From positions 1 to 45,866 of the forward strand of contig CACGIE010000008.1 of the NCBI GenBank assembly GCA_902573015.1: a stretch of DNA of 45,866 nucleotides, given 5' to 3'. The translations under genes were made by a program, and so were the position numbers. Shown here piece by piece: positions 41,329-42,981 of this stretch. This stretch comes from an uncultured Candidatus Poseidoniales archaeon. Lineage in GTDB: Archaea > Thermoplasmatota > Poseidoniia > Poseidoniales > Thalassarchaeaceae. Positions within the stretch are counted from its first letter, which is position 1. Each line of letters begins with the position of its first letter. The notes beneath the pieces were generated by a model. The model searched no databases, was not told where the DNA came from, and saw only the letters and a program-made list of their open reading frames with translations.

Positions 41329-42930
41329 TTATTCGCTTGGACCAGTCATATCACCAGGTCTGACCCATTCTTCGAACTCCTCCTCATTCACCAGATCCAG
41401 TTCGATAGCACTTTGCCTAAGAGTAAGTCCTTTCTCATGGGCATTCTTAGCAATCTTAGCTGCATTGTCGTATCCAATGTACGGATTCAGGGCTGTGACT
41501 AGCATCAATGAGTTCTCGAGGTGCTCGGTAATCTTTGCTTCGTTTGCTCTGAGTCCGAGTATGCAATTTTCAGAGAAAGATACACAGCTATCTGATAGGA
41601 GCCTTGTGCTATGCAGGAGATTATGGATCATCATCGGCTTGAAGACGTTCAGTTCGAAGTTTCCCTGGCTTCCACCGATGGAGATAGCAACATGATTCCC
41701 CATTACCTGGCAACAGACCATAGTCATGGCTTCAGACTGTGTTGGATTGACCTTGCCGGGCATTATACTAGAGCCAGGTTCGTTCGCGGGCAGGGAGAGT
41801 TCTCCAAAACCACACCGGGGTCCGGATCCAAGCCATCTCACATCATTGGCTATCTTCATCAACGAGGCTGAAAGTGTATTCAGAGCGCCCGAAGCCGCTA
41901 CTATGGCATCGTGAGCTGCTAATTGTGCAAACTTATTCTCTGCACTGATGAAGGGTAGACCTGTCTTTTGTGAAATCTTATCAGCGACTATTTCTGCGAA
42001 TTCGGGATGAGCATTGAGGCCGGTTCCAACTGCAGTCCCTCCCAGTGCTAGTTCGTACAAATCGTTCAGAGCCGTTTGAATCCTAATCAAGTCGGCATCC
42101 AACATCGACACGTAAGCACCAAACTCCTGTCCAAGTGTTAGTGGAACGGCATCCATGAGGTGGGTTCTACCAATCTTGACTATGTCAGAGAACTCTTCCT
42201 CCTTCTCCGTTAGAGAATGTCGAAGTTTCAGTACTGATGGAATTAGCCGATGTTGTATTTCCTCGGCTGCAGCGATGTGCATTGCAGTTGGAAACGTATC
42301 ATTACTAGACTGCGCGCGGTTTACATGATCATTAGGGTGTACCGGAGACTTACTGCCCAGCTTTCCTCCAGAGATCTCAATTGCCCTATTCGCAACAACC
42401 TCGTTTGCGTTCATGTTCGTCTGAGTCCCAGAGCCCGTCTGCCAAATCCTCAGAGGGAAGTGGGAGTCTAGATTCCCTGAAATCACCTCTTCGCATGTTT
42501 CCGAGATCAGTTTTCCAATGTCATCTTCCAATACTCCAAGTTTGACATTTGTCTCTGCTGCTGCCTGCTTTAGGATTCCAAATGCACGAATCACAGATCT
42601 GGGCATTCTATCTTCTCCTATATCGAAGTTGATCAGAGACCTTGCTGTCTGTGCCCCATAGTATCTATCAGCAGGAACTTCTATGTCTCCCATTGTATCA
42701 GTCTCAACTCTCACTTTGAGATTGGTCTTGTGAGGTTTCCGAGGCTCTATCTCTTCAGAGGTGAGCCTGTTGACAACGGCTCCAGAAAGGGAGTTTTCAA
42801 TCATCTTGGAAATAGTGGCAGATCTTCCTTCCCCTCTACCCTTACCAACCCTAGCGTCCAATCTTCTAGCAATATCCTCTGGAATACTGACTGAAATTAT
42901 TCTACGATCACCGACACGATGCTTCGCCAT
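41329..42930 (-). CDS. fumC: Class II fumarate hydratase with N-terminal ribbon-helix-helix domain
   Basis: N-terminus [41 protein letters not shown] (RHH/CopG-like); then [74 protein letters not shown] (fumarase signature). Confidence 0.93.
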
Positions 42931-42938
42931 GTTAATTG

Positions 42939-42958
42939 TATTAATAACTTATTAATAA
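42939..42958. promoter_or_regulatory. Tandem palindromic repeats TATTAATAA-ct-TATTAATAA upstream of fumC
   Basis: Two identical 9-mers with 11-bp periodicity, 9 nt upstream of the fumC start, adjacent to a TATA-like ATATATTTA (minus strand). Confidence 0.6.
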
Positions 42959-42981
42959 ATATATTTACCACAGTCTAATCC

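Follow-up and report, generated by a model that had tools for sequence, protein, structure and literature searches.

A fumarase gene, fumC, lies near one end of the stretch of DNA analysed here (the window; 45,866 nucleotides from an uncultured Candidatus Poseidoniales archaeon), and its protein of 533 amino acids begins with a domain resembling the ribbon-helix-helix (RHH) domains of DNA-binding regulators. Short symmetric repeats stand directly before the gene, and the question that this locus raises is whether they are an operator through which the enzyme could control its own synthesis, as the initial annotation proposed, or simply part of an A+T-rich archaeal promoter. The nature of the N-terminal domain, the conservation of the repeats in related genomes, their position relative to other genes, and their association with the domain each bear on the answer, and are considered in turn. 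Coordinates of the features are collected in Table 1.

Table 1. Features of fumC and of the DNA before it, in window coordinates
Feature	Position	Strand	Basis
fumC, N-terminal RHH-like domain fused to class II fumarase, 533 aa	41329..42930	-	
Residues 1-48, RHH-like domain	42787..42930	-	RHH_1 in 26/30 members; NikR and EndoAI antitoxin among best PDB matches
Residues 49-72, poorly conserved linker	42715..42786	-	Alignment of members
Residues 73-530, fumarase C	41341..42714	-	fumC_II equivalog and intact signature
Operator-like element, TATTAATAA-G-TTATTAATA, perfect 9-1-9 inverted repeat	42939..42957	-	Conserved, exclusive to fumC
Promoter-distal half-site TTTATTAATAA, also likely TATA box	42949..42959	-	Position conserved in fusion promoters
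ATG-proximal half-site TTATTAATA, not accounted for by a TATA box	42939..42947	-	Footprint, scoring
Central base, G, C or T depending on species	42948..42948	-	0.58 bit in genus (24 species)

The fumarase and its N-terminal domain

The catalytic part of the protein is a class II fumarase, matching the fumC_II equivalog at 773 bits against a cut-off of 664.75 and containing the 10-residue catalytic signature. Preceding it, and separated from it by a variable linker, is a strongly conserved N-terminal domain with the consensus MAKHRaGDRRIISISIPEdLAkkLDrrVGKGRxxGRSATIxxmIxxsL, in which R36 and S37 are invariant and S13 and S15, in the strand, nearly so. Scores of the family members against the RHH_1 profile are weak (best E 6e-5), and the window protein itself, at E 0.006 and 16.9 bits, falls under the Pfam cut-off of 20.5. 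The top PDB sequence matches of the domain are the RHH regulators NikR and EndoAI (E 0.01-0.1), and its strand-helix-helix layout, with a conserved (G/N)RS at the start of helix 2, is that of RHH proteins. On the strength of the profile matches, the RHH regulators at the head of the PDB matches, and this layout, residues 1-48 are likely an RHH domain. A structure model of the domain alone, of medium confidence (pLDDT 74, pTM 0.46), contains helices at residues 18-28 and 36-48, with the strand present as short bridges only. Foldseek with this modelled monomer gave no confident PDB fold match; RHH domains are not stable as monomers, and the missing match therefore tells little.

As judged from its sequence, the protein thus joins a DNA-binding-type domain to an enzyme, as would be expected of an autoregulatory enzyme. 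A domain-profile search of 293 genomes of the phylum found the full fusion only in Poseidoniales, with only weak matches, in short frames, elsewhere. An RHH extension in bacterial fumarases was considered and rejected, the alignments reaching residues 25-36 being upstream noise (stops or unrelated sequence). These archaeal genomes also encode a second RHH-like protein, mostly of about 125-140 aa in the relatives, which is the size of NikR; its frame in the window's own genome (G000:C1:100616-100765) has a TAG inside the match.

The repeat element and its footprint in Poseidoniales

Two copies of TATTAATAA are found on the plus strand, at 42939-42947 and 42950-42958, with the 11-bp spacing that the initial annotation had reported. 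Its description of near-perfect palindromes is likewise borne out, since the second copy is perfect as TTATTAATAA (42949-42958) and the first, GTATTAATAA, has one mismatch; ATATATTTA is located at 42959-42967. Beyond that reading, there is an inverted symmetry between the two copies, which together make a perfect 9-1-9 repeat, the sole perfect 9-(0 to 2)-9 inverted repeat of the window; it spans -27 to -9 relative to the fumC ATG and ends 8 nt before it. Each of the arms is itself close to a palindrome, so the inverted repeat doubles as a direct repeat, in which the hexamer ATTAAT stands twice at 11-bp spacing with AAGTT as the 5-bp linker; such a pair of short symmetric half-sites, spaced by roughly one helical turn, is the arrangement looked for in an RHH operator.

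Coding-strand (minus) sequence before the gene reads ...TAAATATATTTATTAATAAGTTATTAATACAATTAAC-ATG, with the distal half-site at -29 to -19. As the host is an archaeon of the order Candidatus Poseidoniales (marine Group II), close to Candidatus Thalassarchaeum and with its nearest named homologues in marine group II and Thalassarchaeaceae genomes, a promoter of the TATA/BRE type is expected, and TTTATTAA at -29 to -22 is likely the TATA box of a predicted leaderless transcript. The repeats had been described as lying between a TATA-like element and the fumC start; the location stands, but the distal half is itself the likely TATA box.

Within the window, such repeats are not greatly improbable. 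Simulated windows are expected to contain 0.57 perfect 9-(0 to 2)-9 repeats, and for the 51 bp of A+T-rich intergenic DNA before fumC (42931-42981), taken at the dinucleotide content of that DNA, the probability of one is about 0.01; the decamer, at no more than one mismatch, is found twice in the window against 0.98 expected, and 27 of 100 shuffles also reach two. The window sequence by itself is weak evidence for the repeat, suggestive only and compatible with chance.

Upstream regions of fumC from 147 related Poseidoniales genomes were therefore of more use than the single locus, and footprinting of the relatives that keep the fusion was also the check for which the initial annotation had called, a lack of conserved spaced repeats being the outcome that would count against it. 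In all 93 fusion promoters examined (93/93), TTTATTAA or TTTAATAA, at 7 or more of 8 bases, starts -32 to -28 from the ATG, the place of a TATA box for a leaderless transcript, and most of them have another ATTAAT-like half 11 bp further on (10 bp in g6). Spaced repeats are kept at this fixed distance in most fusion-bearing species, representing 15 genera, and the expected conservation is thus present; it is incomplete, however, in that a second half at 10-11 bp is not clearly recognizable in g2, g3, most of g5, g14, g20, and parts of g10 and g13. Over the 24 species of the genus, the site appears as about 21 columns of mostly ~1.5-2 bits each, with a central base that is free to vary and flanks mostly below 0.9. 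Genus-weighted over the 15 genera, the distal half retains ~1.0-2.0 bits, against 0.1-0.9 for the proximal half, which has therefore been lost or changed in part of the lineages; 22 of 91 fusion-bearing species score <10/12, the proximal half being weak or missing there though the domain looks intact. Only the proximal half is independent evidence, the distal half being also the TATA box. No covariance was seen between recognition residues and site sequence, as positions 11, 13 and 15 (I, S/T, S) hardly vary.

By eye, a second TTTAATAA-, TTAATAAC- or GTTATTAATC-like element appears to be present some 20-21 bp away from the first in the g14 promoters (L077, L078, L080, L087) and in L272 and L273. 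Such a spacing corresponds to two helical turns, not one, and the RHH domain of this lineage has diverged.

Position at fumC and association with the domain

Searches of whole genomes place the site at fumC. With one mismatch or none, TTTATTAATAAVTWATTAA was found in 50 of the 147 genomes, all matches listed being directly upstream of fumC, and its reversed-pattern control gave about 14 matches in the same search. In the genus, 21 of the 24 occurrences of the 11-mer TTTATTAATAA in 28 genomes are at fumC, and TTTATTAA has no other occurrence in the window. A search of the organism's own genome for further copies, also suggested at the outset, returned no other site within 3 mismatches in the assembly, which is 63% complete, and a regulon was rejected on finding no second target there. 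(An over-strict first pattern had given no match in this genome at all.) The looser ATTAATN{4,5}ATTAAT matches a single site in this genome; it matches a few more in other genomes, where the spacers are unrelated. Chance, allowed for in the initial annotation on account of the AT-rich DNA, can account for the window alone, and is ruled out by the cross-species conservation together with the exclusive position at fumC.

Outside fumC, TTTATTAATAA occurs just 3 times in the 28 congeners versus about 28 times for the reversed control, a hint of avoidance at other genomic positions.

It was further found that the site follows the domain. A site score of at least 11/12 is reached by 62 of 91 fumC genes with the domain versus 0 of 34 without it, the latter being drawn from g7, g12, g13, g15-17, g19 and g21 and searched over a longer upstream stretch (Fisher 2e-13, kinship ignored). 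On a tree of 74 FumC catalytic domains the domain state changes 7 times, at least 5 of them by supported branches, and of the independent pairs, 4 have the site on the side with the domain, 0 have it on the side without, and 1 is a tie (sign test p 0.125, too few events). The tree-aware test is underpowered and points the same way as the other tests. By these comparisons the gene has a dedicated site in its own promoter, tied to the presence of the domain, as would be expected of an autoregulatory enzyme, the exceptions being the species without a clear proximal half.

Other conserved stretches, GTGCGAACTGTGAAGAAGTTCAGCCCC-AAGGG or GGGAAAGGGACATGGAC, stand just before the ATG of domain-less fumC genes (L094-L118 in g12, L091, L109, L110, L113, L128 and L285-L289), and these may be a different control element or leader.

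Operator reading, rival explanations and known systems

Taken together with its presence at fumC only and its absence where the domain is lacking, the autoregulatory RHH architecture first suggested for this locus is supported by the sequence tests, and there is a good probability that the element before fumC is the operator of RHH-FumC. Repression is proposed since the site shares positions with the TATA box and with the DNA leading up to the start, and the RHH-fumarase probably represses its own gene. For DNA binding, repression, the tetramer geometry and any ligand control, we infer the following arrangement. Class II fumarase is a tetramer, and an RHH-FumC tetramer would carry four N-terminal RHH domains that could pair into two RHH dimers, as many as the two half-sites require. 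These would occupy the neighbouring ATTAAT half-sites, at a distance of one helical turn, and insert their beta-sheets into the major groove; the near-invariant basic arm MAKHRxGDRR could contact the A+T-rich minor groove as well. The occupied site would cover the TATA box with its distal half and the stretch up to the transcription start with its proximal half, and the bound enzyme would exclude TBP/TFB or RNA polymerase, such that fumC would be repressed when fumarase is plentiful. Fumarate or malate might modulate repression, as proline does for PutA, although ligand control is a guess. The reading in full, of a substrate-sensing, self-repressing fumarase with two RHH dimers on an operator that is present in one copy and covers the TATA box, and a circuit repeatedly lost (or gained) with the domain, is put forward only tentatively.

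An account in terms of the core promoter only, with TTTATTAA as the TATA box, the rest as A+T-rich melting DNA, and the repeats as a by-product of strong promoter constraint, draws on the presence of the distal half at -32 to -28 in all fusion promoters, even where the proximal half is lost, and on an A+T content that makes short repeats likely. Generic promoter sequence should, however, recur at other genes, and the 19-mer is nowhere else in the 147 genomes among the matches listed, the 11-mer is almost nowhere else, and TTTATTAA is present once in the window; the proximal half, moreover, is kept to the base at the 11-bp (or 10-bp) phase around a free central base, and we regard this account as unlikely. 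A terminator of the upstream PPIase was also considered and rejected, as the spacing between site and fumC ATG is preserved whereas the sequence preceding the site diverges.

That a separate transcription factor acts in trans on fumC through the site appears quite improbable, even though the symmetry of a site does not reveal which protein binds it and the other small RHH proteins (~125-140 aa) of these genomes could be candidates, because the site is found only where fumC bears the domain and is absent in domain-less sisters, for which a factor in trans gives no reason, and because a regulator with a single genomic target is most simply that target itself. Hitch-hiking, in which the RHH domain and the promoter arrived in one fusion event and were co-inherited with no regulatory tie, could draw on the different construction of the upstream regions of domain-less fumC genes, as promoter and domain may have been transferred in one piece. 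It is very improbable given that the site hardly varies between flanks that have become close to random, and is therefore under selection, and that G112 (L127), with a strongly diverged domain among domain-less g15 genomes, also carries the site as TTTATTAATAATGAATAATA.

For the operator reading, the nearest known arrangement is that of trifunctional PutA of the E. coli/Salmonella type, which likewise has an N-terminal RHH domain on a catabolic enzyme and the autorepression, through sites at its own gene, that is predicted for RHH-FumC. PutA combines the RHH domain with proline dehydrogenase and P5C dehydrogenase and is an autogenous repressor (PMC5293562). RHH-FumC would differ in its enzyme, the unrelated fumarase, in its archaeal TATA/TBP promoter, and in having one short site over the TATA box; it is expected to be a tetramer by itself, whereas in PutA the RHH domain holds together a dimer, and PutA switches from DNA to membrane by proline and flavin redox state, unlike the reading proposed for RHH-FumC. 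NikR, the best PDB sequence match of the FumC domain, also has an RHH domain joined to a tetramer-making domain, but with a nickel-binding domain in place of the enzyme and with longer, split operators. Among stand-alone RHH proteins, the auto-repressor AmrZ binds as a dimer of dimers on two half-sites with a 5-bp linker (PMC3325190). The operators of AmrZ, Arc and CopG resemble the fumC site, known from sequence, in half-sites about 11 bp apart, a 5-bp linker, and location in the protein's own promoter; the three are stand-alone repressors, and the AmrZ half-site is GGC in contrast to the A+T-only ATTAAT at fumC. CdrS is an archaeal RHH_1-type regulator as well, but is a stand-alone 55-aa protein controlling ftsZ2 (PMC7439475).

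A literature search joining 'ribbon-helix-helix' with 'fumarase', largely of sources other than subscription journals, found no report. To our knowledge, PutA is the main known example of a self-repressing enzyme with an RHH domain fused to it. Poseidoniales have no cultured member and little is known of their gene regulation; the fumarase version, if true, would be a second, unrelated case of such an enzyme, confined among the sampled genomes to this marine archaeal order.
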